A stretch of 64,000 nucleotides of DNA, taken from NCBI GenBank assembly GCA_902776455.1, contig CACYQI010000007.1:1-64000 (forward strand), given 5' to 3'. The notes beneath the pieces are model-generated. The model was not told the DNA's origin, searched no databases, and was given only the letters and a program-made list of their open reading frames with translations. A program made the position numbers and the translations under genes. The DNA comes from an uncultured Bacteroidales bacterium (GTDB lineage: Bacteria > Bacteroidota > Bacteroidia > Bacteroidales > Bacteroidaceae). Positions 2,760 to 63,365 of this stretch are shown one piece after another (the first letter of the stretch is position 1; the number at the start of each line of letters is the position of its first letter).

Positions 2760-3800
2760 ATGGAAAACTACGAACTTCAGAGACTCAGAAGTCTTCCGGT
2801 AGAAAGCGTAGCTGAAAGGCTGGGGCTTGCGGTGCTGCGTCACCGCAGCCTCTGCCCCTTCCACGAAGACCACAGACCCAGTCTCGCGTTCAACGTTGCC
2901 AAGAACAATTTCCACTGCTACGCCTGCGGAGCGCACGGCAATACCATCGACCTCGCCATGAAGCTCCTGAACCTGCCCTTCCTCGAAGCCTGCCGATGGC
3001 TTGCCGACGAGCACAACGTGATTCTGACGACATTCAAGCCGAGCGAAACGAAGCCGCCCAAGCCGTTTGATGCAAAGAAGTATGAAAAGTATTTCGAGCA
3101 TCCTTTCTTGAACGAGGAGGCACGTCATTTCCTCTTCGCGGAAAGGAAACTGGATGAGCGTGTAGTCCGTTGGTGCCGGCTCAATTCGTGGCACGACAGG
3201 AATGGCATCCCTTGGCTCCAAATACCTTATTACAATAGGGAAGGAAAACTCATAGGCGTTCAGAATAGGAACTTAGAGACCCCCTCTAATTCAAAGGCCC
3301 CCTCTAACTCCCCCTTAAAGGGGGAGAAAGCAGGCGAGGAAAGCCTCCCATCGGGGAAGTTTGAAGGGGGTCTTGGGGAAGTTTGGAGAGAGTCTTCTCC
3401 CCGCTTCCGTTTCCCTGCCGCCTCCCGATGCCGCATCTACGACCTCCCCGTCTTGAAGATGCTGCGCCCAGGGGAAGACCTCTACATCACCGAAGGAAGC
3501 AGCGACTGCTGGGCAATGCTCTCCGCTGGTAGAAAAGCCATTGCAATCCCCTCGGCAACACTGTTCAACAAAAAGGAATTCAAGGAAGAATTGCAGGCGG
3601 CACGTATTCTCGAAAACGGAAACAGCCTCCACATCTATCCCGACAAGGATGCCGCTGGCGAGAACCTTCATTACGAATTGCTTGCGTTCGCCAACGACAT
3701 GGGCATCAAGCTCGTCCGCCATGACCTGCCCGACGGCTGCAAGGACTTTGCCGACTATTGGGTGCAGCAAAGCGTCCACCGTACCCCCGTACCCTCCTAA
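2760..3800 (+). CDS. CHC2 zinc-finger/Toprim primase carrying an in-frame repeat insert
   Basis: This 346-residue DNA primase belongs to the mobilisable-element type. The CHC2 zinc finger is complete, with ligands Cys32, His35, Cys53 and Cys56 (LCPFHEDHRP ... FHCYACG). A Toprim-like domain follows, with YITEGSSD around Glu242 and the acidic YPDKDAAG. It would make RNA primers for replication of the element. Residues about 170-210 (3267-3389) are a translated copy of the G/C hairpin repeat found in gaps of this window; it sits between NRN and PRFRFP, where related primases appear to be contiguous. The last residues (VHRTPVPS) look abnormal and the end lies only a few bases from a truncated gene on the other strand, so the 3' end may have been cut at that junction. 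Whether it is still active is unknown. Confidence 0.8.
   Translation: MENYELQRLRSLPVESVAERLGLAVLRHRSLCPFHEDHRPSLAFNVAKNNFHCYACGAHGNTIDLAMKLLNLPFLEACRWLADEHNVILTTFKPSETKPPKPFDAKKYEKYFEHPFLNEEARHFLFAERKLDERVVRWCRLNSWHDRNGIPWLQIPYYNREGKLIGVQNRNLETPSNSKAPSNSPLKGEKAGEESLPSGKFEGGLGEVWRESSPRFRFPAASRCRIYDLPVLKMLRPGEDLYITEGSSDCWAMLSAGRKAIAIPSATLFNKKEFKEELQAARILENGNSLHIYPDKDAAGENLHYELLAFANDMGIKLVRHDLPDGCKDFADYWVQQSVHRTPVPS
3267..3389 (+). repeat. G/C hairpin repeat inserted in frame in the primase
   Basis: The segment contains CCCCCTCTAACTCCCCC, then TTAAAGGGGGAG, and a second arm with GGGGAAGTTTGAAGGGGG. Very similar strings occur between genes at 29716-29785 and 61922-62105. The insert leaves the reading frame open and adds about 41 residues. 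Confidence 0.7.
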
Positions 3801-7516: not shown

Positions 7517-8725
7517 ATGAAAACAAATCTTTCCGAGAGGCTACAACGCCTTTCACCCAGTGCAACGCTTGCCATGAGCCAGCGCAGCAGCGAACTCAAA
7601 GCAGAAGGCGTTGATGTCATCAACATGAGTGTGGGCGAACCTGACTTCAACACGCCCGACCACATTAAGGCTGCTGCCATCAAAGCCGTTGAGAACAACT
7701 ACAGCCGCTACAGCCCAGTTCCGGGTTATCCCGAGCTGAAGAAAGCCATCGTGGCTAAGCTAAAAAACGAGAACGGCTTGGACTACGCTCCCAGTCAGAT
7801 TCTTTGCAGCAACGGCGCCAAGCAGAGCGTCTGCAACACCATCATGGCTGTTGTCAATGCCGGCGACGAAGTTATCATCCCCGCGCCCTATTGGGTGAGC
7901 TACCCGCAGATGGTACTCCTGGCAGAAGGCACGCCCGTCTTCGTCGAGGCAACCATCGAACAGGACTTCAAGATAACGCCAGAACAGCTCGAAGCTGCCA
8001 TCACGCCCAAGACGAAGGCACTCATCCTCTGCTCGCCCAGCAACCCGACCGGCTCCGTCTATAGCAAGAAGGAACTCGAAGCACTGAAGGACGTGCTGCT
8101 TCGTCACGAAGACATCATCGTCATTGCCGACGAGATTTACGAGCACATCAACTACGTCGGCGAGCATGCCAGCATGGCGCAGTTCCCCGAAATCAAGGAG
8201 AGAGTGGTCGTCATCAACGGCGTCAGCAAGGCCTACGCCATGACAGGTTGGCGCATTGGCTTCATCGCAGCACCCGAATGGATAGTGAAAGGTTGCAACA
8301 AGCTGCAGGGACAATACACCAGCGGTCCGTGCTCCGTCAGCCAGAAGGCAGCAGAAGCCGCCTTTGCTGGTCCGCAGGAGTGTGTCGAAGAAATGCGTCA
8401 GGCCTTCGAGCGTCGCAAGAACCTCATCGTCAAGCTTGCTAAGGAGATTCCCGGTCTCGAAGTCAACGACCCGCAAGGAGCCTTCTATCTCTTCCCCAAG
8501 TGCAGCAGCTTCTTCGGCAAGAAGGCAATGGTCAATGGTCAATGGTCAATGGTCAATAATTCCACCGACCTCGCCATGTACCTGCTCGAAGTGGGTCACG
8601 TTGCCACTGTTGGCGGTGATGCTTTCGGCTCGCCCGAGTGCTTCCGCATGAGCTATGCCACCAGCGACGAGAACATCATCGAGGCCATGAAGCGCATCAA
8701 AGAAACCCTCGCAAGACTGAAGTAA
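7517..8725 (+). CDS. aspC: PLP-dependent aspartate aminotransferase family protein
   Basis: This fold-type I aminotransferase of 402 residues most likely makes aspartate from oxaloacetate or acts on related keto acids in the cytoplasm. Visible motifs are MSVGEPDFNTPDHI near the N-terminus, SNPTGSVYSKKEL, the PLP-contacting DEIYEHINYVGEH, the lysine motif NGVSKAYAMTGWRIGF and a C-terminal FRMSYATSDENI with the substrate-binding Arg. A loop near residues 336-347 (AMVNGQWSMVNN) is encoded by four perfect AATGGTC heptamers; related enzymes have a short unrelated loop there. As 7 is not a multiple of 3, gain or loss of one unit would truncate the protein about 65 residues early. The GH43-like gene follows after 12 bases. 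Confidence 0.88.
   Translation: MKTNLSERLQRLSPSATLAMSQRSSELKAEGVDVINMSVGEPDFNTPDHIKAAAIKAVENNYSRYSPVPGYPELKKAIVAKLKNENGLDYAPSQILCSNGAKQSVCNTIMAVVNAGDEVIIPAPYWVSYPQMVLLAEGTPVFVEATIEQDFKITPEQLEAAITPKTKALILCSPSNPTGSVYSKKELEALKDVLLRHEDIIVIADEIYEHINYVGEHASMAQFPEIKERVVVINGVSKAYAMTGWRIGFIAAPEWIVKGCNKLQGQYTSGPCSVSQKAAEAAFAGPQECVEEMRQAFERRKNLIVKLAKEIPGLEVNDPQGAFYLFPKCSSFFGKKAMVNGQWSMVNNSTDLAMYLLEVGHVATVGGDAFGSPECFRMSYATSDENIIEAMKRIKETLARLK
8527..8557 (+). repeat. AATGGTC heptamer array inside aspC
   Basis: Four perfect units at 8527, 8534, 8541 and 8548, followed by AAT. It is coding and is read in all three phases (MVNGQWSMVN). Confidence 0.8.
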
Positions 8726-16423: not shown

Positions 16424-16447
16424 GAAAAGGAGCATAAGTTGATGCCC

Positions 16448-16557
16448 CGTGGAGCGCAGGCCGACACAACGTGGAGCGTAAGCCGATGCAACGTGGAGGA
16501 AAGCCCGATGCAACGTGGAGCGTAAGCCGATGCTCCACGGAGCGTGAAACTACCACC
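16448..16557. repeat. 22-bp array, CGTGGAGCGTAAGCCGATG family
   Basis: CGTGG recurs at 16448, 16470, 16492 and 16514, exactly 22 bp apart, with a degenerate fifth unit near 16536. The same unit occurs in the opposite sense at 24606-24740. Confidence 0.75.
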
Positions 16558-16558
16558 T

Positions 16559-16619
16559 GTGGATAGTTTGCGAAATGTCCGTGGATAGTTTGCGAAATGT
16601 CCGTGGATAGTTTGACAAA
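16559..16619. repeat. 22-bp array, GTGGATAGTTTGCGAAATGTCC family
   Basis: Two perfect 22-bp units (16559-16580, 16581-16602) and a partial third. This is the reverse complement of the nine-copy array at 25082-25279. Confidence 0.8.
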
Positions 16620-16675
16620 TCTACATGGAGTGTTTACTTCAGCAGTACTCTACAAAGATTCAGTCGAAGCTTCGC

Positions 16676-24536: not shown

Positions 24537-24605
24537 GATTACCAGCACAATAAAGGACGCATTCCTAACAGTACGTTTTAACACGTTACTGAGTATCATC
24601 CTACG

Positions 24606-24740
24606 CTCCACGGAGCATCGGCTTACACTCCACGTAGCATCGGCTTATGCTCCACGGAGCATCGGCTTACCCTCCACGGAGCATCGGCTTACGCTCCACG
24701 GAGCATCGGCTTACACTCCACGGAGCATCGGGCTACGCTC
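24606..24740. repeat. 22-bp array, CTCCACGGAGCATCGGCTTAC family
   Basis: Six units with start CTCCACG at 24606, 24628, 24650, 24672, 24694 and 24716. Reverse complement of the unit at 16448-16557. Confidence 0.8.
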
Positions 24741-24758
24741 TACGGAAATTTGGAAAAT

Positions 24759-25050
24759 ATTGTTGTCCGCTAAATAAGCGCCGAAGGCGCGAAAGAACAC
24801 AGACGGGGGTGAAACCCCCGGGATAAAGTAGCAGAACAATCGTAAGCCCTAAAGGGGCGACAGAAAGCCCAATTGGTTAGTGAACAGCATATTAAGAACT
24901 CTGTCGCCCCGTCAGGGCTTCTTTTGTTTTCGCAATCCTACCGGGGGTTTCACCCCCGTCTGTGGTCTTTCGTCTCTTCGAGACTTTAGCCAAGCCCACA
25001 TAAGCAGCTTTTCGTCAGAAATGCCGATGGATAAAAACCAAAATAGAAGA
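24759..25050 (+). repeat. Long palindromic element, copy A
   Basis: A ~290-bp element with nested inverted repeats: GACGGGGGTGAAACCCCCG near the left and CGGGGGTTTCACCCCCGTC near the right, and an inner pair GCCCTAAAGGGGCGACAGA/TCTGTCGCCCCGTCAGGGC. Copy B at 33196-33512 is the same element in the opposite orientation. No reading frame of note. Confidence 0.75.
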
Positions 25051-25081
25051 AAATTAATTTTTTCATCAGGCATTAATATTC

Positions 25082-25279
25082 GGCAAACTATCCACGGACA
25101 ATAGGCAAACTATCCACAGACATTTGGCAAACTATCCACGGACAATCGGCAAACTATCCACAGACATTCGGCAAACTATCCACGGACATTTGGCAAACTA
25201 TCCACAGACATTCGGCAAACTATCCATGGACATTTGGCAAACTATCCACGGACATTCGGCAAACTATCCACGGACATTC
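25082..25279. repeat. 22-bp array, GGCAAACTATCCACGGACAT family, nine copies
   Basis: Nine units of exactly 22 bp with near-identical cores (GGCAAACTATCCACGGACAT, differing mainly at the last bases). Same family as 16559-16619 in the reverse sense. Confidence 0.85.
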
Positions 25280-25392
25280 GGATTGAGGGCTGTTTTATCC
25301 TTTTGCACTCCTTTATGGTGCGGCTCAAAGTCGATACTAATAATGAAAAAAACTTAAAAGCAGTTTATTTTTCAAAAATAAGTGACGTATTA

Positions 25393-25546: not shown

Positions 25547-26659
25547 ATGAACCTCTTTCGCGACTTAAAGCAAAAGTACACCGCTGACACCCTCTCGGCT
25601 CGCGAGGCTCAGCGACAGGCTGAGTTCATTGCCTGGGGGCCTATCGTCTTCCAAGCTTCGCGCCTGATGCTCAAGTTCGGCATCCTCGACCTTCTGCGCG
25701 ACAGCGACAACGGGCTTACGGTAACTGAGGTTGCCGAGAAGGTCGGACTCTCGGAGTATGCCGTCAAGTGTCTGCTCGAGGCGTCGCTCAGCATCGGCAC
25801 GGTGCTCATCAACACAGAAACCGACCGCTACTCCATCTCCAAGACGGGATGGTTCCTCTTGAACGATGCCGCAACGAAGGCGAACATTGACTTCGTACAC
25901 GATGTCAACTACGTGGGTCTGTTCCGCCTCGAGGAAGCCATCAAGGAGGGAAAGCCTGCCGGACTGAAACACTTCGGCGACTGGCCGACCATCTACGAGG
26001 GGTTGTCCTCTCTGCCCCCTGATGTGCAAAGGAGTTGGTTCGCCTTCGACCACTTCTACAGCGATTCCTCTTTCCCCGAGGCCTTGCAGATAGTCTTCGG
26101 CGAACACTTTGTCCGCACGCTCTACGACGTGGGAGGCAACACGGGCCGATGGGCACTCCGATGTGTCAGCTACGACGAGAAGGCTGAAGTAACCATTCTC
26201 GACCTTCCCGGTCAAATCAAGATGATGCAGGAGAACATCTCGGGAAAGCCCGGAGCAGAGCGCATCAAAGGCTACCCTATCGACTTGCTCGACAGGTCGG
26301 CCGCCTTCCCTCAGCACAAAGGCGAACTCGATGCCATCTGGATGTCGCAGTTCCTCGACTGCTTCAGCGAAGAGGAGATTGTCAGCATTCTCTCCAGGGC
26401 AAGGGAGGTGATGACGGACGGCACGCGCCTCTTCATCATGGAAACCTTCTGGGACCGCCAGCGCTTCGAGCCTGCTGCCTTCTGCCTGACCATGACCAGC
26501 CTCTACTTCACGGCATTGGCCAACGGCAACAGCAAGATGTATCATTCCGACGACATGCGACGTCTCGTCCGTGAGGCGGGACTGGAGATAGAGAGCATAC
26601 ACGACGGACTAGGACAAGGGCACAGCATCATGGTGTGCAAAAGGGCCGAAAAACTCTAA
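25547..26659 (+). CDS. SAM-dependent O-methyltransferase-type protein
   Basis: This 370-residue protein has the architecture of small-molecule O-methyltransferases: an N-terminal winged-helix dimerisation part (EVAEKVGLSEYAVKCLLEASLSIGTV), then a Rossmann methyltransferase domain with the SAM motif LYDVGGNTGRWAL at about 190-202, TILDLPGQ and a late SAREVM/FIMETFWDR region. In an aryl-polyene-like setting such enzymes methylate the aromatic head group. First gene of a five-gene run (methyltransferase, acyltransferase, ketosynthase, ACP, ketosynthase-CLF). The substrate is unknown. Confidence 0.8.
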   Translation: MNLFRDLKQKYTADTLSAREAQRQAEFIAWGPIVFQASRLMLKFGILDLLRDSDNGLTVTEVAEKVGLSEYAVKCLLEASLSIGTVLINTETDRYSISKTGWFLLNDAATKANIDFVHDVNYVGLFRLEEAIKEGKPAGLKHFGDWPTIYEGLSSLPPDVQRSWFAFDHFYSDSSFPEALQIVFGEHFVRTLYDVGGNTGRWALRCVSYDEKAEVTILDLPGQIKMMQENISGKPGAERIKGYPIDLLDRSAAFPQHKGELDAIWMSQFLDCFSEEEIVSILSRAREVMTDGTRLFIMETFWDRQRFEPAAFCLTMTSLYFTALANGNSKMYHSDDMRRLVREAGLEIESIHDGLGQGHSIMVCKRAEKL

Positions 26660-26670
26660 GCTACAGAGAG

Positions 26671-27576
26671 ATGGCAGAACGAGAGTGGGCAGGAACGACA
26701 TACGGCAACGAGTGGATGCACAAGTGGCTCATCCGCATGCTTCGGTACATCGACATACGGGTGCTGTACGTCTTCGCGGCTATCTTCATCATTCCCGTCT
26801 GCCTGCTGCTGAACCCAAGCCGTGGCATTGCCTATCGCTATTTCCGCCATCGCATCGGGTTCGGACGGATGAAATCGGCCTGGATGACATACGTCAACCA
26901 CTGCCTCTTCAGCCAAGTCGTCATCGACAAGTTCGCCATGTTCGCAGGAAAGAAGTTCAACGTGGAGATAGAGAACAACGAGAGCTTCCTTGAGCTGGCG
27001 AGGCAGAAGGAAGGCTTCGTGCAGCTGAGCGCACATGTCGGCAACTACGAAATAGCGGGCTACACGCTCGAATGCAAGGAGAAACGGCTCAACGCACTCG
27101 TCTTTGGGGGCGAGAAGGCAAGCGTTATGCTCAATCGCAACACGCTCTTCAGCAGCAGAGGCATCAGGATGATAGCCGCCGGAACAGACATGAGCTACCT
27201 CTTCGAGCTGGACAAAGCGCTGACAGACGGCGAGATAGTCTGCATGTCGGCCGACCGCATCCTCCGTTCACCCAAGCACATCGAGTGCGACTTCCTCGGA
27301 GCAAAAGCAAACTTCCCGCTCGGCCCCTTCTCCCTCGCCACCATGCACGGCCTCAATGTGCTGGCAATGAACGTGATGAAGACAGCAATGCGGAGCTACA
27401 AGATCTACGTCACTCCCCTGCCCTACGACAAGTCAGCCCCGCGGAAGGAACAGATAAATCAGCTCTCCAAAGCCTATGTCGCCGAGCTTGAGAAGCAGGT
27501 GCGCAGGTATCCGGCACAATGGTACAACTACTTTGAGTTCTGGAACACCACCCCGACACACGCTCCCGAGAAGTGA
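26671..27576 (+). CDS. LpxL-like lysophospholipid/lipid acyltransferase
   Basis: The frame opens upstream but the ATG at 26671 (MAEREWAGTTYGNEW) has a purine-rich leader and removes an artificial overlap with the methyltransferase. An N-terminal membrane anchor (YVFAAIFIIPVCLLL) is followed by the acyltransferase signature HVGNYE (HX4E). This is the LpxL/HtrB class that adds acyl chains to lipids; in polyene clusters homologous genes may attach the chain to a lipid anchor. About 300 residues, normal length. Substrate unknown. Confidence 0.8.
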   Translation: MAEREWAGTTYGNEWMHKWLIRMLRYIDIRVLYVFAAIFIIPVCLLLNPSRGIAYRYFRHRIGFGRMKSAWMTYVNHCLFSQVVIDKFAMFAGKKFNVEIENNESFLELARQKEGFVQLSAHVGNYEIAGYTLECKEKRLNALVFGGEKASVMLNRNTLFSSRGIRMIAAGTDMSYLFELDKALTDGEIVCMSADRILRSPKHIECDFLGAKANFPLGPFSLATMHGLNVLAMNVMKTAMRSYKIYVTPLPYDKSAPRKEQINQLSKAYVAELEKQVRRYPAQWYNYFEFWNTTPTHAPEK

Positions 27577-27682: not shown

Positions 27683-29365
27683 ATGATAAGCGTACTGTCC
27701 ACCAACATCACCTCGCCTCTGGGCCTCACCACAGAGCAGAACTATCAGGCTGTCTTTTCGGGGAGCACAGCCTTGAGGCGCTATGAGGGTATGTGGGGAC
27801 TGCCAGAGCCGTTTGCCGCCTCGCTGTTCAGCGACGAGCAGAAGGCAGCACTCGCATTGGATGGATATACGTTCTTCGAAGCACTTGCCATACGTTCCGT
27901 TCGCGAAGCCCTCTCGCATCTGCGGCTCGATGTCACGTCCGAGAGAGTTGTCTTCATACTGAGCACCACGAAAGGCAACGTGGAAGAGATAAACACCCCT
28001 CGCTACTATCCGTCGGAATCGGCAAGCATCATCGCAAGAAACATCGGGCTGACCACAACGCCCATCGTGGTTTGCAACGCCTGCGTCTCGGGCCTTTCAG
28101 CACAACTCCTTGCCGACCATCTGCTTACGGCCAACCTCTACGACTACGCCATCGTGGTAGGAGCAGAGGTGCAAAGCAAGTTCATTGTGGCTGGTTTCCA
28201 GTCCCTTAAGGCCATATCGGAAGAGCCTTGCCGCCCATTCGACATGGAACGTAACGGCCTCAATCCAGGCGAAGCGGCTGCCACGATTGTCTTCGGCAAG
28301 CCTTCTCCAAGGCTCGGTGACGTTAGAGAGGGTCTCTATTGGAACCTCGTGGACGGAGCAGCTTGCAACGACGCCTGCCATCTCGTCTCGCCATCGCCGC
28401 AAGGCGTGGGTCTGACCGCTGCCATCGAGACTGCGATGAAAGGTCGCGACAAGAAGCAACTCGCTACGATTTGCGCTCACGGAACAGCCACGCTCTACAA
28501 CGATCAAATGGAGTCGAAAGCCATTGAGAAGGCCCATCTGTCGGACATCCCCCTGTCTGCGCTCAAAGGCTACTACGGGCATACGATGGGGGCGGCAGGC
28601 GTGCTCGAAACCATCCTGTCCATGCGAGCCACAGACGACGGCATCGTGCTTGCCACAAAGGGTTTTATGGAACCGGGTGTCAGCGGAAAAGTCAGCATCA
28701 ATGGCGAGCCGCGACCCATCGATAAGACCGCCTTCTTGAAGGTTATGTCGGGTTTTGGCGGCTGCAACGTAACGGCACTCTATGAAAGAGGGGCAGGAAG
28801 CATGGAGCAAGGGGCAGGAAGCATGGAGCAAGGAGCCAGAGGAAAAGTGAAGCTCGAAAAGGTGCAGACCGTCAGATTCTCTTCTGCGGAAGGGACTTCT
28901 CCCTCCGACATCTACAAGCAGGAAATAGGGAACTATCCTAAGTTCTACAAGATGGACATCCTTTCGCGACTGGCTTTCGTGGCAGCAGAAAAGGTCCTCT
29001 CCAACTCTCCCCTGAAGGACGAAGACAAGAAGCCTGCCCTCATCCTCTTCAACCACTCGTCCTCGATAGAAAGCGACCGCCGTTTCCTCGACACAATCAG
29101 CCGTGCCGAAGACTTCTTCCCCAGCCCTTCCGCCTTCGTTTACACCTTGCCCAACATCGCAGCTGGCGAGATAGCCATCCGACATCAGCTTCTCGGCGAG
29201 ACCTCCTTCTACATCCTTCCCGAGAAAGACGAAACGTTGATGCAGCAGATACTCGAAGCCACTCTGGGCGGCACGGAAGCCCGAAGCGTCGTCAGCGGCT
29301 GGGTAGATGCCGAAAGCAACACAAGCTACGAGTGCGAACTGACAATATATTCTGTTAAAGTATAA
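27683..29365 (+). CDS. Beta-ketoacyl-ACP synthase with a degenerate C-terminal thiolase-like domain
   Basis: The N-terminal ketosynthase (about 1-365) has a full triad: Cys134 in VVCNACVSG, His266 in CAHGTATL, Lys295 and His300 in LKGYYGHTMGAAG. Residues about 390-560 form a second thiolase-like half without a catalytic Cys (DILSRLAFVAAEKVL ... NIAAGEIAIRHQLLGETSFYIL), resembling the small chain-length-factor-like proteins of aryl-polyene and flexirubin clusters. The linker (about 370-388) is a tandem of the 21-bp unit GGGGCAGGAAGCATGGAGCAA, giving RGAGSMEQGAGSMEQGARG. Such a linker is not expected in the family and looks like repeat-born sequence. It probably extends a chain on the neighbouring ACP. 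Confidence 0.8.
   Translation: MISVLSTNITSPLGLTTEQNYQAVFSGSTALRRYEGMWGLPEPFAASLFSDEQKAALALDGYTFFEALAIRSVREALSHLRLDVTSERVVFILSTTKGNVEEINTPRYYPSESASIIARNIGLTTTPIVVCNACVSGLSAQLLADHLLTANLYDYAIVVGAEVQSKFIVAGFQSLKAISEEPCRPFDMERNGLNPGEAAATIVFGKPSPRLGDVREGLYWNLVDGAACNDACHLVSPSPQGVGLTAAIETAMKGRDKKQLATICAHGTATLYNDQMESKAIEKAHLSDIPLSALKGYYGHTMGAAGVLETILSMRATDDGIVLATKGFMEPGVSGKVSINGEPRPIDKTAFLKVMSGFGGCNVTALYERGAGSMEQGAGSMEQGARGKVKLEKVQTVRFSSAEGTSPSDIYKQEIGNYPKFYKMDILSRLAFVAAEKVLSNSPLKDEDKKPALILFNHSSSIESDRRFLDTISRAEDFFPSPSAFVYTLPNIAAGEIAIRHQLLGETSFYILPEKDETLMQQILEATLGGTEARSVVSGWVDAESNTSYECELTIYSVKV
28790..28831 (+). repeat. 21-bp tandem inside the first ketosynthase
   Basis: Two perfect copies of a 21-bp unit (28790-28810, 28811-28831) and the beginning of a third. 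It is in frame and lies at the boundary of the two protein halves. Confidence 0.75.
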
Positions 29366-29436: not shown

Positions 29437-29697
29437 ATGGAACAACTTATTAACGACTTGAAACAACAGATTAAGGAAGTCCTCAACCTGGAGGAGCTTT
29501 CTCTTGAAGACTTCGATGCTGATGCGCCTCTCTTTGCCGATGAAGGCATCGGCCTCGACTCCATCGATGTGCTCGAAATCATCGTGCTCTTGGAGAAACA
29601 GTATGGCATTCGTCTCGCCAACCCGAAAGAAGGCAAAGCCATCTTCAAGAGCGTGCGTACAATAGCCGAATACGTGCAGGCAAACAGGAAGAAGTAA
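29437..29697 (+). CDS. Acyl carrier protein
   Basis: An 86-residue carrier protein. The phosphopantetheine attachment motif is GIGLDSIDVLEI with Ser42. The helix II and III pattern is typical of dedicated ACPs of secondary pathways. It carries the growing chain for the flanking ketosynthases. About 70 bases separate it from the ketosynthase upstream. Confidence 0.92.
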   Translation: MEQLINDLKQQIKEVLNLEELSLEDFDADAPLFADEGIGLDSIDVLEIIVLLEKQYGIRLANPKEGKAIFKSVRTIAEYVQANRKK

Positions 29698-29819
29698 AGA
29701 GTTAAGAGTTGAAAAGCCCCCCTCTGACTCCCTCTTAAAGGGGAGGACTCCCTCCCTTTAAGGGAGGATTGAGGAGAGTCTGAGAGTTGAAGTTGAAAGT
29801 TGAGAGTGAACCAAATAAA
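29698..29819. repeat. Heptamer and G/C hairpin repeats between the ACP and ketosynthase genes
   Basis: Begins at the ACP stop with GAGTTAA/GAGTTGA heptamers, then a hairpin with CCCCCCTCTGACTCCCTC and GGGGAGGACTCCCTCCC near 29716-29785, then GTTGAAAGTTGAGAG. The hairpin matches the inserts inside the primase and second ketosynthase. Confidence 0.6.
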
Positions 29820-31736
29820 ATGGCAAACGTAATAGTAGCAGGTTACGGCATTATCTGCGCCATTGGCAACGATGCCTCGGCTGTCCTGAAGTCCCTCAAA
29901 GAAGGGCAAACAGGGATTGGCCCAATGCGTTATCTCCAGTCGAGCCACAAGGAGTTGCCCGTTGGCGAAGTGAAACTCTCCAACGAAGAGATGAAGCAGA
30001 TGCTTGGCTTGGACAAAGAAGCCATCATCAGCCGAACCGCTTTGATGGGAGCCATTGCTATCCGCCAAGCCTTAGAGCATGCCCAGCTGACACTAAAAGG
30101 CAAGCGCGTTGTCGTCATTTCCGGCACGACCGTAGGCGGAATGGATATGACGGAGCGTTACTTCAAAGGTCCTTCTGCAGAGCTGGAAGAAGCTCTCAGG
30201 AAGCACGACTGCGGCAGCTCCACGCGGCAGATGGCCAACCTTGCCGGACTTGTAGATGCCGAGGTGTGTACCGTCTCCACAGCCTGCTCGTCTGCCGTCA
30301 ACGCCATCATCCTCGGCTCGGAAATGCTGAAAAGGGGCGAAGCAGACATCGTCATAGCAGGCGGCACGGAAGCCCTGAGCATGTTCCACCTCAACGGGTT
30401 CAACTCGCTGATGATTCTCGACAAAGCCCAATGCCGACCATTCGACAAGACGCGTACTGGCCTGAACTTGGGCGAAGGAGCTGCTTTCCTTGTGCTTACA
30501 CACACTTTAGTGAAGAGTAAAGAGTTAAGAGTGAAGAATAATAGTAACAACTTAGAGCGCAAAAGTAGTTCTAATCCTTCACTCTTCACTCTTCACTCTT
30601 CTGTTTACATCCGCGGCTATGCCAACCGTTGCGATGCCTTCCACCAGACTGCTTCATCCGAAAACGGCGAGGGAGCCTTCCTTGCCATGACCGATGCCTT
30701 GAAGATGGCTGGGCTGAGACCTGAAGACATCAGCTACATCAATGCCCACGGCACGGGTACTCCCAACAACGATGCCAGCGAAAGCGAAGCCATCCGACGA
30801 GTCTTCGCCGACAACATCCCGCCCGTCTCCAGCACGAAAGGCTTCACAGGCCACACCACCTCGGCTTCCGGCGCAATAGAAACCGTCATATGTATCCTTG
30901 CTCTTCAAAACAACTTCCTGCCTGCAAACCTCGGCTGGAAGGAACAAGACGAAGCGTGCATCACTCCCCTTGGAAATGAAGAATTAAGAATGAAGAATGA
31001 AGAATTTGCTACCGCGCGTAACATTCTTTGCAATTCCTTCGGATTTGGAGGGAACGATTCGGCAGTTGTGATAGGTAAAAGCTCCCTCCCCGACTTTTCG
31101 AGCAAGGAGCAGCCTCTCCTAAAACGCAGGGGGCAGGAAGCCTTTTCCCCTTCCCTAAACTTAAAGTCCTTCCCTTCAGGGGAGGATTTAGGAGAGGCTA
31201 CCACCTGCGTCTTGGGAGAAGCCGTAATAGATGATGTTGAGCAACTAGGTGAGCTTCGCGAGTTTGTCACAGCAGGCGAAGCCCGACGGATGGGCAAGCT
31301 GATGAAGGCAGCCACCATCACCTCCATGAGAGCGTTGCGGCAGGCAGGCGTGGAACGCCCCGATGCCATCATCACAGCCACCGCCTACGGAATGCTCGAG
31401 ACGAGCGAACGCTTCCTCACAGACATGGTGGAGAACGGCGAAGAGATGCTCAGCCCTACCCTCTTCATGCAGAGCACACACAACACCATCGGCTCAGCCC
31501 TCGCCATACGGCTCAAGTGCCACGGCTACAACATCACTTATTCGCAAGGCGCAGACTCGTTCCGTTGGGCACTTCGCGACGCCAAGCGCCTAATAGAAAC
31601 GGGCAAGGCAAAGACTGTCCTTGTGGGTCAGCACGACGAAGCAACGCCTATGATGCAGCACTTCTGCCGCCTAATGGGTTGTCCCGTCCCGCCGATGCTC
31701 TACTCCCGCAGCATCGTGCTGAGCCGCAAGACCTGA
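29820..31736 (+). CDS. Ketosynthase fused to a chain-length-factor domain by repeat sequence
   Basis: The start at 29820 follows a repeat-rich leader; an earlier in-frame ATG would add only repeat-coded residues. N-terminal beta-ketoacyl synthase, about 1-420: Cys156 in VSTACSSA, His310 in NAHGTGT, Lys340 and His345 in STKGFTGHTTSASG. C-terminal domain, about 466-638, is a ketoacyl-synt_2 (chain-length-factor) domain with EARRMGKLMKAA, RPDAIITATAYG, FMQSTHNTIGSALAIRL and VLVGQHDEATP. Normally these are separate genes in aryl-polyene-like clusters. Three in-frame repeats interrupt it: residues ~231-261, ~386-398 and ~421-462; the last joins the two domains. It is unknown whether the enzyme tolerates them, but all catalytic residues are kept and the frame is open for 638 codons. 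Confidence 0.82.
   Translation: MANVIVAGYGIICAIGNDASAVLKSLKEGQTGIGPMRYLQSSHKELPVGEVKLSNEEMKQMLGLDKEAIISRTALMGAIAIRQALEHAQLTLKGKRVVVISGTTVGGMDMTERYFKGPSAELEEALRKHDCGSSTRQMANLAGLVDAEVCTVSTACSSAVNAIILGSEMLKRGEADIVIAGGTEALSMFHLNGFNSLMILDKAQCRPFDKTRTGLNLGEGAAFLVLTHTLVKSKELRVKNNSNNLERKSSSNPSLFTLHSSVYIRGYANRCDAFHQTASSENGEGAFLAMTDALKMAGLRPEDISYINAHGTGTPNNDASESEAIRRVFADNIPPVSSTKGFTGHTTSASGAIETVICILALQNNFLPANLGWKEQDEACITPLGNEELRMKNEEFATARNILCNSFGFGGNDSAVVIGKSSLPDFSSKEQPLLKRRGQEAFSPSLNLKSFPSGEDLGEATTCVLGEAVIDDVEQLGELREFVTAGEARRMGKLMKAATITSMRALRQAGVERPDAIITATAYGMLETSERFLTDMVENGEEMLSPTLFMQSTHNTIGSALAIRLKCHGYNITYSQGADSFRWALRDAKRLIETGKAKTVLVGQHDEATPMMQHFCRLMGCPVPPMLYSRSIVLSRKT
30510..30602 (+). repeat. GTGAAGA/TTCACTC inverted repeat inside the ketosynthase (insert 1)
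   Basis: Left arm AGTGAAGAGTAAAGAGTT, right arm TTCACTCTTCACTCTTCAC. The arms pair. The same heptamer (agtgaag) occurs between genes at 46183-46206 and 53095-53122. It adds about 30 residues between THTLV and YIRGY. Confidence 0.7.
30975..31013 (+). repeat. GAATGAA heptamer inside the ketosynthase (insert 2)
   Basis: It reads GAATGAAGAATGAAGAATTT and then GCTACCGCGC. The intergenic copy at 40704-40743 is identical over the last 30 bases and has one more heptamer. Confidence 0.75.
31080..31205 (+). repeat. G/C hairpin inside the ketosynthase, joining the CLF domain (insert 3)
   Basis: The end of the insert (AAGTCCTTCCCTTCAGGGGA and onward to GGATTTAGGAGAGGCT) differs by one base from the intergenic copy at 52286-52322. 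The upstream part (GGGGGCAGG AAGCC) also matches that copy in order. Confidence 0.75.
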
Positions 31737-33633: not shown

Positions 33634-33820
33634 TTTGTCAAGACTTTTCGCATTCCGACGCGCTCTGACGGCATCTTTTTGCTTCTGTGGCACTTTGGTC
33701 CACCGAAGACGAGAAATGGGCTTAAATCGAATGGCAGCTGAAAATCAACGGGTTGGGAAGGGGCGTTTGGCAAGGGCGGGTTAAGAAAGTATAAGGTCGG
33801 CATGAAATGCCGACATACAA
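33634..33820 (+). repeat. 190-bp dispersed repeat, copy F1
   Basis: Its reverse complement matches 52641-52829 over about 190 bp, with GCACTTTGGTCCACCGAAGAC and AAATGGGCTT as the best parts. It ends in a perfect hairpin GTCGGCAT-GAA-ATGCCGAC (33796-33814). A third fragment lies at 62961-63004. Confidence 0.65.
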
Positions 33821-33866
33821 AACAAAGAATGAAGGGAAAATTGGCTAGTTGAAAGGGGGAAGTTAA

Positions 33867-33955
33867 CGTGGAGGAAAAGGCAACACTCCGTGGAGAGTTG
33901 GCCGACTTAACGTGGAGCTTCGAAAGACAAGGCGTGCTACGTCGGCCGATTCGGC
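33867..33955. repeat. 22-bp array (degenerate), CGTGG family
   Basis: CGTGG or CGTGC at 33867, 33889, 33911 and 33933, exactly 22 bp apart, although the sequence between has drifted. The short open frame that runs through here is judged not to be a gene. From 34030 to 34085 a G/C hairpin repeat (GGGAGAAGTCTCTCCC) lies just before the next gene. Confidence 0.55.
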
Positions 33956-39570: not shown

Positions 39571-40659
39571 ATGAAGAAAATCGACCGCTACATCATCGGT
39601 AAGTTCCTCGGCACTTACTTCTTCTCCATCGTGCTTATCATAAGCATCGGTGTGGTGTTCGATTTCAATGAGAACATCGACCGCTTCACCGAGTCGAATG
39701 CGCCGTGGCGAGCCATCGTCTTTCAGTACTACCTCAACTTCATCCCCTACTACGCCAACCTCTTCAGCGCCCTGTTCGTCTTCATCAGCGTCATCTTCTT
39801 CACCTCGAAGATGGCAGACGGCAGCGAAATCATTGCCATGATAAGTGCCGGCATCAGCTACCGACGGCTCCTGCTGCCATACATGATAAGCTCTGCCATC
39901 ATTGCCTCCCTTACCTTCTATCTCGGGTCGGAGGTCATTCCGCGAAGCAGCGTGAAACGTCTCGCCTTCGAGAACACCTACAAGAAACGCAACAAGAACC
40001 CGACATATGCCGAGAAAGTACAGTTGCAGGTAGAGCCGGGTGTCATTGCCTACATGGAGCACTTCGACGGAGTCAGCAAGACCGGCGTACACTTCTCGCT
40101 CGACATGTTCGAGAACAAGAAGCTCGTCTCGCACCTATCAGCAGGCACAGCCCAATACGACACGCTGAGCGACGTCCGCTACCAATGGCACTTGAGGGAT
40201 GTCACGGTGCGCGAACTTCGCGGCATGAGGGAGAAAATCACGCATTACGACCTCGTCGATTCCATCATTCGCATCGAGCCGCAAGACTTCCTCTTCATCC
40301 GCAACCAGCAGGAAACGATGACGAATGCCGCGCTGAAAGAGTACATAGAGAAGCAACGCAACCGCGGAAGCGGCAACCTGAGCATCTTCGAGGTGGAGTA
40401 CTACAAGCGCTATGCATCGCCCTTCGCCGCCTTCATTCTCTCCTCCATCGGCATGTCGCTGTCCTCCCGCAAACGCAAAGGCGGAATGGGCTTCTCGTTG
40501 GGAATAGGTATTGCCCTGAGTGCCACCTACATCCTGCTGCAAGGCATCTCGGCAACCTTCTCTACAAACGCAGGAATGCATCCTGCCCTCGCTGCCTGGA
40601 TGCCCAACATCCTATATACATTAATCGCGATATATCTCTATCGCAAGGCACCGAGGTAA
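39571..40659 (+). CDS. LptG/LptF-family permease (second copy)
   Basis: A 362-residue inner-membrane protein of the lipopolysaccharide exporter. The N-terminal segments (FFSIVLIISIGVVFDF, YANLFSALFVFISVIFF), a periplasmic domain, and the C-terminal YKRYASPFAAFILSSIGMSLSSRKRKGGMGFSLGIGIALS are as in the family. It lacks the C-terminal extension of the paralogue at 4140-6080. The tgt-lptG order is usual in Bacteroidales. Confidence 0.9.
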   Translation: MKKIDRYIIGKFLGTYFFSIVLIISIGVVFDFNENIDRFTESNAPWRAIVFQYYLNFIPYYANLFSALFVFISVIFFTSKMADGSEIIAMISAGISYRRLLLPYMISSAIIASLTFYLGSEVIPRSSVKRLAFENTYKKRNKNPTYAEKVQLQVEPGVIAYMEHFDGVSKTGVHFSLDMFENKKLVSHLSAGTAQYDTLSDVRYQWHLRDVTVRELRGMREKITHYDLVDSIIRIEPQDFLFIRNQQETMTNAALKEYIEKQRNRGSGNLSIFEVEYYKRYASPFAAFILSSIGMSLSSRKRKGGMGFSLGIGIALSATYILLQGISATFSTNAGMHPALAAWMPNILYTLIAIYLYRKAPR

Positions 40660-40828
40660 ATGAAGAATGAAGAATGAAGTATTTGCTACCGCGATTAGTA
40701 AATTAAGAATGAAGAATGAAGAATGAAGAATTTGCTACCGCGCTCAATAAATGAAGAATTAAATCCTTAAATCATAAAATCCTTAAATCATAAAATCCTT
40801 AAATCTTTAAATCCTTAAATCTTTAAAT
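40660..40828. repeat. Heptamer arrays after lptG
   Basis: GAATGAA units begin right at the stop codon and end in GCTACCGCG twice (near 40690 and 40742); TTAAATC/CTTAAAT-type repeats then fill the rest to the helicase start. The GCTACCGCG tail also occurs inside the second ketosynthase. Confidence 0.7.
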
Positions 40829-46139: not shown

Positions 46140-46400
46140 TGCGAAGTGAAAAGTGAGGCCTCTCCCCATCCGGCGAAGTGAAAAGTGAAGAGTGAAAAGT
46201 GAAAAATCAAAGTTACCAGCCGCCCTGTAAATAGCTAAATTATAAAATAGTACATAAATAGTAAATCGTAAATCGTCAAATCGTAAATTAAATAGGATTA
46301 CAAATAAATAGTAAATTGTAAATAGTCAAATTGTAAATTACTTAGGATTACTAAATTGTACATCAATTGTACATTGTACATTGTTAAATTGTAAATTAAC
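46140..46400. repeat. GTGAAAA and GTAAATC/GTAAATA heptamer arrays
   Basis: GTGAAAA/GTGAAGA units at 46146-46206, then GTAAATC, GTCAAAT and TTGTAAA-type units at 46246-46400. Very similar arrays lie at 53090-53275. No gene. Confidence 0.65.
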
Positions 46401-46525: not shown

Positions 46526-49500
46526 ATGAAAAGAAAGGACTTTTTGATTGCTCTCTTGCTGGCCATCTTCGGTATGCAGACAGCCTTGGCAGAGTACCAT
46601 TATGTTGATTTGGGTTTGCCCAGCGGTACATTGTGGGCAACGGTAAACGTCGGAGCCAACTTACCCACCGACCCCGGCGACTACTTCGCTTGGGGAGAAA
46701 CCAGTCCGAAGAGCGACTACAGCTCGAGTACCTACAAGTGGTGTGAAGGCTCTGAAAACGCCTTAACTAAGTATTGCGACAATAGTTCTTATGGCTACAA
46801 CGGCTTTACAGACAATTGTATGGAGCTTTTGTCCCAGGACGATGCCGCAACCATGAACTGGGGCTTAGACTGGCGGATACCAACTAAGGAGCAGTGGGAA
46901 GAACTGTTAAATACAGAGTACACCACACAAGAATGGTATTCGTTGGGTGGACTCGGTGTTAATATCTATGGGTGTGAAATTAAAAGCAAACTGAATGGGA
47001 ATTCCATTTTTTTGCCTGCAGGAGGAGAATATAAAGGTTCAAGGTTGGAAGCTTCTGAAGCATGCGGTTCTTATATGTCGCGTAATCTCAAGCCCTCCTA
47101 TTCCTATGATACATATATTATTTTTTTCTATTCTGATGAAAATCATGTTAAGATTAGGGTGGTTTCTGATGCTAGTCGATTTTATGGATACAACATTCGT
47201 CCGGTTCACATGCCTGAGCGCGATTATGTTGACCTGGGTTTGCCCAGCGGTACACTTTGGGCAACAACAAACATCGGTGCCACGAACCCCGCCGACGATG
47301 GCTCTTTCTTCGCTTGGGGTGAGACGCAGTCGAAGAGTAGTTTCTCATACGGTACCTACAAGTGGAGCAAAGGCTCAACCAATACTCTCACGAAGTATTG
47401 CACTGACAGCCAATATGGATATAGTGGCTTTACCGACGGTCTGTCAAAGCTATTGCCGGAGGACGATGCCGCGGCAGCAAACTGGGGCGATGGATGGAAG
47501 ATGCCAAGCATGGAACAGTGGATGGAATTGACCGACGACAGATACACCACGCAGTTCTGGACGCAAAAGCCCACTACGTCTGGTTCTCAGAATTATGGAT
47601 ATCAGATTACGAGCAAGACGAACGGTAACAGCGTCTTCATCCCTGCTGCGGGTCATTTTATCGGCTCTATACATGTCAAGAACGATTCCGAAACATGGAA
47701 TTATTGGACGCCCAGCCTCAGCGAGGATAACTCAGATGCTGCAAAGTTCTTCCAAGATAATCTCAATACTAAAGGTGTTTTCGATAACGACAAGACAACG
47801 GCGCGTTTCTTAGGATTGCCTGTCCGCCCAGTTCTCAGAAGCCCAGTTGTCTATACCGAGTTTGTCGAAGCAACTGGCAAACTGACCTACTACTACGATA
47901 ATATGATGGATTACCGCTCGGGCATCACGGAACTCTACGACCCCGTCGGCACCCCGAATGCAGTACGCTTCAAGGGCTACAACGACAAGATTCTCAAAGC
48001 CGTCATCGACCCCTCGATGATGGATGCTCCGCTCACTTCGATGAGTAACATGTTCTACGGCAATTATGATGAAGAGACAAAAGAGAATCTGTACTTGAAA
48101 AACATGACCGGCATCGAAGGATTGAGGAATCTCAATACGTCAATCGTGACAAATATGTTTGAGATGTTCGATGGATGCTCCTCGCTGAAGGCGCTCTACC
48201 TCAGCTCGTTCAACACGCAGAACGTGACAACAATGTATGGCATGTTCAGTAGATGCTCTTCGCTGCAGTCGCTCGACCTCAGCTCGTTCAATACTGAGAA
48301 CGTATATCACATGAGCTATATGTTCTCCAACTGTTCTTCCCTGCAGGTGCTCGACATCTCTTCGTTCAACATACATACAGCGATAAACATTCATGACATG
48401 TTCGAGGGTTGCACATCCCTGAGAACCATTTATTGCAACGACGACTGGAGCGGCACAACGGCTAACTCCGAATACATGTTCTTTAACTGCATTTCCCTCG
48501 TTGGCGGACGGGGAACAAAATACGACCGCAACGTCGAAGACGCCACCTACGCCCGTCCCGATGGAGGACAGAGTGCCCCGGGCTACTTCACAGTGAAGGG
48601 AGAGGTCTATACCGAGTTCGTTGCAAGCACAGGGACGCTGACTTATTACTACGACCTCAAGCGCAAATCCCGCTCGGGCATTACGGAGCTTTACGACCCA
48701 GTCGGCAACCCCGATGCGCTCCGCTTCAATGATTACCACGACAAGGTGCTCAAAGCTGTCATCGACCCCTCGATGAAGAATGCTCCTTTGACTTCGATGA
48801 AAGGTATGTTCTTTGGTGGAATCAATGTTAGTGTCATTAATTGTTTGTCTGCAATGACCAGCATCAGAGGACTGGAGAACCTCAACACGACAGGCGTGAC
48901 GAATATGGAATCCATGTTCAGGGAATGCTCTTCGCTGACAATGCTCGACCTCAGCTCGTTCAACACGCAGAACGTGACAAACATGTATGCTATGTTCAGC
49001 AGTTGCTCTTCGCTGAAGTCAATCGACGTCCGTTCGTTCAACACGCAGAACGTGACAAACATGGATATGATGTTCTACAATTGCAGTTCCGTACAGATTC
49101 TCGTCACCCGCTCGTGGAACACGCAGAACGTGACGAATATGTACGGTATGTTCTCCGGATGCTCGTCGTTGCTTTCGGTTGACCTCGGTTCGTTCAATAC
49201 AGAGAACGTGACGAATATGCAGAAAATGTTCTCCGGATGCTCATCGCTGCCTTCAATCAACCTCAGCTCGTTCAATACGCAGAACGTGACGGATATGAGT
49301 TTGATGTTCCGGGGATGCTCTTCGTTGACGAGGCTTGACCTCAGCAAGTTCAATACCCGCAGCGTGTCCGACATGTCTTTGATGTTCATGGAGTGTTCTT
49401 CGCTTACTTCGCTCGACCTCAGCATGTTCAATACAAGAAATTTGAAGAAAGCGCTATCCATGTTCTACTTATGCTCAAAACTGCAGACGATTGACATGAC

Positions 49501-52231: not shown

Positions 52232-52345
52232 AGGGGCAGGGGGCAAGGAAAGCCTCTCCCCAACCCTCTCCTGAAGGAGAGGGGGAAGTCCTTCCCTTTA
52301 GGGGAGGATTTAGGAGAGGCTTGCCTTGCCCCCTTGACTCCTTAG
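52232..52345. repeat. G/C hairpin repeat
   Basis: GCCTCTCCCCAACCCTCTCC and GGAGAGGGGGAAGTCC form the first arm pair, and GGGGAGGATTTAGGAGAGGC the second. It matches insert 3 of the ketosynthase at 31163-31198. Confidence 0.65.
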
Positions 52346-52522: not shown

Positions 52523-52600
52523 GCACGCTGTCCTTTTCGACACTCCACGTTGTGTAAGCCGATGCTCCACGTTGTATCGCCTTTCCCTCCACGTTAACTT
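52523..52600. repeat. 22-bp array, CTCCACGTT family
   Basis: CACG at 52523/52525 and CCACG at 52545, 52567 and 52589, a spacing of 22 bp. Same family as 16448 and 24606. Confidence 0.6.
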
Positions 52601-52640
52601 TCCCCTCTCAACTCTCAATTTTCAACTTAAATCTTTGTTC

Positions 52641-52829
52641 TGTATGTCGGCATGTCATGTCGACCTGACACTTTCTTAACTTTCCTCGACAAAACGCCCC
52701 TTTCTAACCTACTAATTCCCAGCGACAATTCAAAATAAGCCCATTTCCCGTCTTCGGTGGACCAAAGTGCCACAGAAGCAAAAAGATGCCGTCAGAACGC
52801 GCCTCATTGCGAAAACTTCTGACAAAAAC
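52641..52829 (-). repeat. 190-bp dispersed repeat, copy F2
   Basis: Reverse orientation of F1 at 33634-33820; the region GTCTTCGGTGGACCAAAGTG is conserved. No gene inside. Confidence 0.6.
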
Positions 52830-52860: not shown

Positions 52861-53275
52861 ACAGAAAAGCTACACCAGCGGTTCCCCTCCCCCTAGGGGG
52901 AGGACGGGAGGGGGCTTTTCCCTTTAGGGGAAGATTTAGGAGAGGCTTGGGAGGGGTTAGGGGTGGGGTCTATCTCACACGGAAAGCACAGAAATGTCGC
53001 CTTCGGCGAAGTGAAAAGTGAAGAATTTGTTACCGCGCTTTGTAAATGAAGAATTAAGAATGAAAAGTGAAGAATATCGCCTTCGGCGAAGTGAAGAGTG
53101 AAAAGTGAAAAGTGAAAAATCAAAGTTACTACGCTCCGCCGCCTTGTAAATAGCTAAATTATTAAATAGTACATAAATAGTAAATTGTAAATCGTCAAAT
53201 CGTAAATTGATTAGGATCGTCAAATCGTAAATTATATAGGATCGTCAAATCGTAAAATAATTAGGATTGTATTTT
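52861..53275. repeat. Mixed G/C hairpin and heptamer repeats after the BspA gene
   Basis: CCCCTCCCCCTAGGGGGAGG at 52885-52905, GGGGAAGATTTAGGAGAGGC, then GTGAAAA units with CGCCTTCGGCG (53083-53093) and GTAAATC/GTCAAATC heptamers to 53275. No gene. Confidence 0.6.
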
Positions 53276-63153: not shown

Positions 63154-63217
63154 TGAGATAAGAAACAGCTTGATAAGTGACAACGACGCCCTGTCCCAAG
63201 GGCTATGCAGAACACAA

Positions 63218-63365
63218 CGTGGAGCGTGGGCCGATACTGCGTGCTGTGTGAGCCGATGCAACGTGGAGCGTGAGCCGATGCTACGTGGAGTGTTTTAACG
63301 TGTAAAGTTGACTAACTAAACGTGTAGTGTTGACTGACTTAACGTGTAAAGTTGGATGATGCCGG
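63218..63365. repeat. 22-bp arrays of two families at the right end
   Basis: CGTGG or CGTGC at 63218, 63240, 63262 and 63284, then CGTGT at 63299, 63321 and 63343: each block keeps a 22-bp period although the unit changes from CGTGGAGCGTGAGCCGATG to AACGTGTAAAGTTGACTGAC. Confidence 0.75.

Follow-up and report, generated by a model that had tools for sequence, protein, structure and literature searches.

Short repeats of many families lie in frame in a ketosynthase gene and in housekeeping genes of an uncultured Bacteroidales genus

Protein-coding repeats in bacterial genes have been described mainly in Rickettsia and Wolbachia, and in an archaeon (PMC2996958). The Rickettsia palindromic elements (RPE), of 105-146 bp, occur both between genes and in frame in conserved genes, where they typically lie in non-structured segments, and the product of one such gene (gmk) is reported to be translated and active (PMC2229807, PMC2996958). 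The first report counted 19 intragenic cases (Ogata et al. 2000, as cited by PMC2229807 and PMC10969869), and in R. conorii ten families have integrated 44 times (PMC2229807, PMC10969869); counterparts exist in Wolbachia and Methanocaldococcus (cited in PMC2996958), and the latter source also describes palindromic amphipathic repeat coding elements (PARCEL). GTAG/CGTC REPs and REP dimers are found inside open reading frames, some genes, including repair genes, holding two or more (PMC3733652). Heptanucleotide tandem repeats are known from Nostoc/Calothrix and Xanthomonas, 68% of those of a Nostoc strain being intergenic and the rest inside genes (PMC4692102), and TAACTGA repeats from Beggiatoaceae (PMC4679880). 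The accessible part of PMC5771137, which deals with Porphyromonas repeats, does not mention in-frame repeats.

We consider here a ketosynthase (KS) gene of an uncultured Bacteroidales bacterium. It is located in a stretch of 64,000 nucleotides, all of which was analysed and which we call the window; the source genome is a draft of 94 contigs, with 87% completeness. The reading frame codes for 638 amino acids and is open throughout (an alternative TTG start is possible at 29787). A Pfam scan finds the KS families PF00109/PF02801 and, at the C-terminus, PF13723 (residues 482-611), which corresponds to the chain-length-factor-like (CLF) domain. The locus also contains the gene of an acyl carrier protein (29437-29697) and that of a LipA-like acyltransferase (26635-27576), both identified with Pfam/NCBIfam, and from this gene set we take it to be of the aryl-polyene or flexirubin type. 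The features discussed below are collected in Table 1.

Table 1. Genes, inserts and intergenic repeat copies in the window (positions in nucleotides)
Feature	Position	Strand	Evidence
KS fused to chain-length-factor-like domain	29820..31736	+	ORF, Pfam, NCBIfam, AF2, Foldseek
KS2, second KS gene beside the KS gene	27683..29365	+	ORF, Pfam
GGAGCAG-type heptamer array, in frame in KS2	28789..28836	+	array scan and congener comparison
G/C element, intergenic, directly upstream of the KS gene	29735..29783	+	71% over 49 nt to reference copy (family D13)
Insert 1, inverted GTGAAGA heptamer doublet	30510..30602	+	doublet scan, folding, homologue comparison
Insert 2, AATGAAG heptamer array with tail TTTGCTACCGCG	30974..31017	+	BLAST to 40700-40743
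Insert 3, doublet rich in G/C, ending in perfect 13-nt inverted repeats; lies in the KS-CLF linker	31111..31199	+	sequence, BLAST, folding
Insert-2 element, two intergenic copies	40659..40756	+	repeat scan, BLAST, tail search
Insert-3 element end, intergenic copy	52275..52323	+	repeat scan, direct comparison
(CAATGGT)4.6 array, in frame in aminotransferase gene (7517-8725)	8526..8557	+	array scan, Pfam
G/C hairpin element, in frame in DnaG-like zinc-ribbon/Toprim gene (2760-3800)	3299..3335	+	BLAST, Pfam

An initial annotation of the window had proposed that three segments of the KS gene look like its non-coding repeats, and this is indeed the case: when gene interiors were compared by BLAST with the intergenic DNA of the same genome, all three segments gave matches: inserts 2 and 3 each reached an E value of 4.7e-14, and the right arm of insert 1 gave 6.6e-6. 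Insert 1 contains a doublet (30512-30601) whose arms of 25 nt each (30512-30536 and 30577-30601) enclose a spacer of 40 nt; only the right arm passed the BLAST comparison (24 nt, 100%), and the left arm is 72% like 46171-46216. The match of insert 2 to 40704-40743 was also correctly seen, and it spans 40700-40743 (95.5% over 44 nt, from 30970-31017); the insert, which had been thought to end with GCTACCGCGC at 31013, actually extends to 31017. Its tail, TTTGCTACCGCG, recurs beside an array twice at 40659-40756 and, if one mismatch is allowed, at 53024 as well as in the homologous loci L039 and L053. Insert 3 ends in perfect inverted repeats (13/13 nt, AGCCTCTCCTAAA/TTTAGGAGAGGCT), a terminal feature of the MITE type, and its best intergenic match is 88.9% over 54 nt. 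The claim that it is one base off 52286-52322 holds for 31164-31199 against 52286-52321 (36 nt), and fails over the 37 nt that include position 52322, where there are two differences. The KS-CLF linker has 62 aa in the window; in 73 of the 81 aligned proteins its length is 33-37 aa.

The KS gene is not special among repeat-bearing genes. We sampled 444,948 bp of the genome (the window and stretches of four contigs), in which our own simple gene caller finds 247 genes: in 38 of them, a total of 46 segments have a match to intergenic DNA elsewhere with E <= 1e-4, versus 0/247 for codon-shuffled gene interiors, a control that does not catch paralogue matches; at least two of the 38 (C3:42371 and C4:19902) look like such matches, and C2:32096 may reflect an effect of its neighbour. 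The sample contains 82 arrays with a lag of 7 nt, of which 21 lie inside genes, 12 at edges and 49 between genes; there are 12, 19, 6 and 5 arrays at lags 8, 9, 10 and 12, respectively, and none at lags 5, 6 and 11. Inverted doublets number 75 (58 between genes, 10 inside, 7 at edges), versus 0 in one order-2 simulated genome. The repeats share features with several types of element: dispersed tandem 7-nt units as in STRR, two inverted units with a spacer as in the REPIN/RAYT type (insert 2 being a single unit), and, as in RPE, the same repeat between genes and inside conserved genes. Inserts 1 and 3 are long palindromes, insert 2 is not, and non-repetitive tails recur beside arrays.

These observations bear on the idea that replication slippage enlarged native low-complexity loops in situ, without any mobile element. 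Period-7 arrays dominate, slippage can alter array length, and, outside the KS gene, a single 22-mer unit distinguishes the loci L040 and L048 of two sister species. Against it stand the inverted arms separated by a spacer, the tails common to intergenic copies, the near-identity to copies elsewhere in the genome and the unrelated families found at one site (see below). The intergenic matches, the inverted doublets and the shared tails led us to reject a native linker made by slippage, and we consider growth in place to be highly improbable.

A Pfam domain was found in 29 of the 30 repeat-bearing genes scanned. Under short names derived from Pfam families, they include AlaRS, QueA, RsmF, PriA, ArgC, Asd, AroB, PyrF, QueG and an LptB-like ABC protein. 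The list used for this purpose also numbers 38 genes; it leaves out the KS gene, C2:32096, C2:83973, C3:42371, C3:76849 and C4:19902 and adds five genes with lag-7 arrays and KS2, 30 of its genes having been scanned, and the gene at 7517-8725 and KS2 separately. The initial annotation also needs correction in that KS2 has an array too, insert 2 forms no hairpin and congeners carry other families at the same loops. At the site of the KS2 array, congeners have other heptamer families or a G/C hairpin, some loci being without clear repeat, and whatever the family, 17 of 23 loci have a linker stretch of 111-117 nt.

The window has other repeats as well. Arrays of a 22-nt unit (CGTGGAGCGTAAGCCGATGCAA and CAAACTATCCACGGACATTCGG types) occur at 16429-16635, 24602-25281 and 63196-63354, inverted between loci, and gene C3:93638 of this genome contains a related block. 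An inverted repeat pair of 304 nt (33634-33937 and 52523-52826) is 78% complementary. The gene at 46526-52213 (1895 aa) has 78-nt periodic repeats (families D1 and D3) and presumably codes for a surface protein of the BspA/DUF285 type. In the accessible text of PMC2996958, a domain of this type is linked to palindromic coding repeats.

The KS alignment comprises 80 named loci and the window, i.e. 81 rows; we count 22 rows, those of the window and 21 loci, as close and the other 59 as distant. In the distant homologues the loops at the three sites, S1, S2 and S3, are mostly short, with 9-16 aa at S1 in 54 of the 59 rows (17-27 aa in the others), 11-13 aa at S2 in all 59 and 33-37 aa at S3 in 53, and insert 1 was not seen in any of these 59 rows. 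In the close rows the same loops hold repeats of various families. At S1, the GTGAAGA doublet is present in the window, L038 and L040, and as a single arm in L043; L039 has a G/C doublet, L054 and L065 have GGGGCAA/GGAGCAA heptamer doublets, and L044, L046, L049 and others half G/C hairpins, with no clear repeat in close rows such as L041, L045, L050, L051 and L057. At S2, AATGAAG is shared by the window and L039; AATTCAA arrays occur in L038, L040, L041, L043, L047, L048 and L053, whole or half G/C hairpins in L042, L088, L044, L046, L049 and L058, and ACAACAG in L045. At a fourth site (S0, after residue 88), L039, L046 and L088 have CAATGGT arrays, and different arrays are present in L050 and L053. 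Insert 3 is seen in the window alone.

On a KS tree of 36 of the 81 rows, built without S1-S3 and with repeat labels assigned by hand, the fewest label changes are 5 at S0 (35 rows), 9 at S1 (32 rows) and 9 at S2 (33 rows). This count omits ambiguous rows (L042, L047, L058 and L072 at S1; L054, L056 and L072 at S2; L072 at S0), and L055, which may hold a CCTCAAC array at S1, is labelled as having none. We note separately that the AATTCAA insert of L053 at S2 (114 nt) itself contains a GCGCGATTGTAGTCGCG palindrome, and that this nested repeat keeps the frame.

The same situation prevails in housekeeping genes. Among 25 chosen genomes of the genus, including that of the window, we found 22 matches for QueA, 24 for the LptB-like protein and 23 for AlaRS, in which sites were judged to be filled by segment length. 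One loop of the LptB-like protein is filled in 10 of 24 loci, by at least four families; AlaRS is filled in 10 of 23 loci, by CAATGGT, GGGGCAA or G/C doublets; for the three sites of QueA, 19 of the 22 aligned rows were counted, and 13, 6 and 15 of these, respectively, are filled. Each of these five sites has received at least three families, and many congeners are without insert at a given site. The trees of these genes omit L158 (QueA) and L213, L214 and L217 (AlaRS).

Heptamer arrays seemed at first to be confined to one clade: 48 are found in 282,634 bp of the 21 close KS loci (0.170 per kb) and 16 in 722,575 bp of the 59 others (0.022 per kb). The contrast is weaker in genome samples, with 82 lag-7 arrays in 445 kb of the window's own genome, 21 in 380 kb of the close congener G091 and 38 in 360 kb of the far congener G094, which has repeat families of its own. 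Genes matching intergenic DNA are 38/247, 14/283 and 19/238 in these three samples (several of those of G094 being only paralogue-like). We therefore gave up the idea of a strict clade restriction: the repeat load differs between species, and the phenomenon extends beyond the close clade.

As stated in the initial annotation, all three KS inserts keep the frame. Frame 0 is without stop in each, and the +1/+2 frames contain 4/6 stops in insert 1, 2/2 in insert 2 and 4/0 in insert 3. Among 75 long segments from the surveyed genes (a count that omits L157, L158, L159 and the S1 loops of L072, L080, L081 and L083), each off-frame has a stop in 51; the absence of in-frame stops in these segments (0/75) is by construction, the reading frames having been cut from stop to stop, and is superseded by a test in which the flanks of each site were placed independently by tblastn, which avoids conditioning on open frames. 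The test was applied to four sites of KS in 80 loci, to three sites of QueA in 22 loci, and to the LptB-like protein (24 loci) and AlaRS (23 loci). It located both flanks in 430 of 433 cases, the three misses being S2 flanks, and all 430 placed pairs are collinear and in one frame, with no stop between them. Filled sites make up 78 of the 430 pairs, counted over eight sites and leaving out S0, where the threshold cannot separate filled from native; these counts differ slightly from those of the long segments because the site limits differ. The QueA match of G051 has an internal TAA, yet its three sites are open in the flank test.

An open frame across all placed pairs, while off-frames are mostly closed, speaks for translation of the inserts, which would then be neither spliced out nor bypassed. 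The frame is not kept by virtue of element length, an explanation that we rejected since doublet lengths are not multiples of 3 (remainders 0, 1 and 2 occur 2, 3 and 5 times in coding doublets and 17, 16 and 25 times in intergenic ones). By eye, the three copies of insert 1 differ freely in amino acids. It might still be objected, the genome being a draft, that the inserts are artefacts, in the form of a chimeric assembly, a pseudogene or segments removed at the RNA level (intron-like or by translational bypass). A chimera is unlikely, since insert 1 is also found in the assemblies of L038 and L040 and insert 2 in that of L039; the consistently open frames and the conservation of the catalytic residues also argue against such artefacts, which are barely credible as an explanation.

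These residues, C156, H310, H345 and K340, which we take to be the catalytic ones of KS, are invariant in 51 homologues, in agreement with the claim that the inserts leave them intact; the same 51 of the 81 homologues served for the AlphaFold2 model (pLDDT 87.3, pTM 0.90). A Foldseek search with this model returns FabF chains at the top and the KS-CLF of PfaC (6riw) at rank 15. Insert 1 (residues 234-258) lies between strands 220-227 and 262-271 and insert 3 (residues 427-457) between strands 412-419 and 462-470, both with pLDDT below 50; insert 2 is modelled with a pLDDT of about 77-81 and a helix at 389-396. All three inserts are placed between core elements.

In terms of RNA, insert 1 is predicted to fold with -35.9 kcal/mol (z -6.1, 200 shuffles) and insert 3 with z -3.3, each beating 200/200 shuffles. 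This, together with the reuse of the same loops in many species, could be taken to mean that the loops are adaptive or regulatory, either by diversifying the surface of the proteins or as mRNA hairpins that regulate translation or mRNA stability. On the contrary, insert 2 shows no hairpin on folding, families vary freely between close species, the enzymes affected have unrelated functions and, at any given site, many congeners do without an insert, so that a selected function appears quite improbable.

Sister species in which genes or loci are 92-95% identical in nucleotides differ at single sites: L040/L048 at S1 of KS, L044/L046 at S0, L154/L156 at site 3 of QueA and L196/L198 in AlaRS. In L044/L046, an array of 33 nt stands in place of 12 native nt, and native codons are lost at the junctions in this pair as well as in L154/L156 and L196/L198, which would not be expected of a simple insertion. 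By eye, the close pairs show no target-site duplication, the junctions being blurred by the replaced codons. The L038/L043 pair at S1 fits an in-frame deletion of 66 nt. There is one difference that looks like a plain insertion: a gene of L040 that we named MMPL/RND-like by eye contains in frame a GTGAAGA doublet of 132 nt, absent from L048 (L040:10265 vs L048:12644), and this doublet adjoins a native AAAAGTGAAGAAG, which resembles the heptamer. In AlaRS, the right flank of L196 resembles other filled species, and some filled loops may for this reason have come by homologous recombination. Taken together, most close pairs suggest loop replacement more than clean insertion.

One may go further and imagine that the repeats overwrite native loops, by a templated patching in which template switching at short homologies would often leave the length unchanged and swap families between sisters. 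This is a tentative reading, which we judge possible though doubtful. It is prompted by the replacement in L044/L046, by the swap between L040 and L048 at S1, by the GTGAAGA doublet beside the native AAAAGTGAAGAAG in the MMPL/RND-like gene, even if that one has the look of a plain insertion, and by the constancy of the S1 and KS2 linker lengths: S1 measures 15 aa in 12 of the 22 close rows, several of these loops being derived from repeats of several families, a constancy that counts against the explanation favored below. If overwriting were true, the proteome of the genus would be under continuous natural loop replacement, and its genomes would hold a genome-wide record of the loops that tolerate foreign sequence.

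With respect to the agent of mobility, the doublets could be REPINs moved by a RAYT transposase. Their architecture of inverted pairs is the expected one, intragenic REP dimers are known (PMC3733652), and the PF01797 (RAYT) profile has three weak matches in the genome, two of them over the cut-off. At L138:1276-2239 (contig C22), a RAYT gene of 179 aa stands between GGCGGATTTGTAATCCGCC-type palindromes in a 53-nt inverted repeat, which is an arrangement of the classical REP type; in the 445-kb sample, the GGCGGATTTGTAATCCGCC-type palindrome is matched 8 times when up to two mismatches are allowed. However, this is another family: the insert families are absent from the flanks of the L138 gene, where GGCGGATT palindromes are found instead, and we accordingly discarded this RAYT as the mover. 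No transposase could be linked to the insert families, which counts against the explanation favored below. The flanks of L139 and L140 were scanned for repeats within themselves only. Since the repeat families are also many, we find a REPIN/RAYT origin improbable. As a side observation, the RAYT-like gene of L140 (889-930, contig C76; PF01797 match below the cut-off) has an in-frame 21-nt tandem repeat of the CAACAGACAAG type.

The explanation that we favor, with a probability of roughly 0.84, is that the inserts are short non-autonomous repeats of many families that are often inserted and survive only in frame in tolerant loops. Many of these elements are doublets, made of two inverted arms (heptamer arrays or G/C hairpins) around a spacer. 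They would have entered coding sequence repeatedly throughout the uncultured Bacteroidales genus, either by replacement through microhomology and template switching or by a transposase acting in trans. The only copies to survive would be those that keep the frame, bring no in-frame stop and fall in a tolerant loop, so that the same loops would be struck independently by different families. The repeats would be translated as extra loops, probably near-neutral for enzyme function, and filled loops may pass between species by homologous recombination.

This looks like a case, in an uncultured, mostly rumen-dwelling gut Bacteroidales genus, of many families lodged in housekeeping genes, with the same loops refilled. 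The 139 genomes of the genus amount to a natural insertion scan of tolerant protein loops, which could be of use in protein design and in quantifying the movement of short repeats and the acceptance of new sequence by proteins.

We found no report of such inserts in Bacteroidales in the open-licence literature, nor any description there of heptamer-array arms, of many families or of reuse of the same loops. PARCEL are similar insofar as they are palindromic repeat DNA that codes for protein; in the accessible text of their description they are tandem 75-nt repeats in membrane-associated proteins of unknown function, whereas here scattered inserts are found in housekeeping enzymes. The repeats of Nostoc/Calothrix, Xanthomonas and Beggiatoaceae are also dispersed period-7 arrays, but here the arrays are the arms of inverted doublets, in frame in loops of housekeeping enzymes, with many families per genome. 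Intragenic REPs resemble the inserts as short palindromes and dimers within open reading frames; the accessible part of PMC3733652 describes no heptamer arrays, and here the families differ at the same loop in congeners. The likeness to RPE, pointed out in the initial annotation, is right in substance, and concerns palindromic repeats both intergenic and in frame in conserved genes, compared by description; the distant homologues mostly have short loops at these sites, and the region is unlikely to be an assembly chimera. Contrary to RPE, the repeats described here affect 38 of 247 sampled genes, their arms are often heptamer arrays, and different families occupy the same loop in sister species. 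The kind is therefore already known, from RPE and from intragenic REP dimers, while the heptamer-array doublets in Bacteroidales, their number and the reuse of the same loops, which we found nowhere described, appear to be new.
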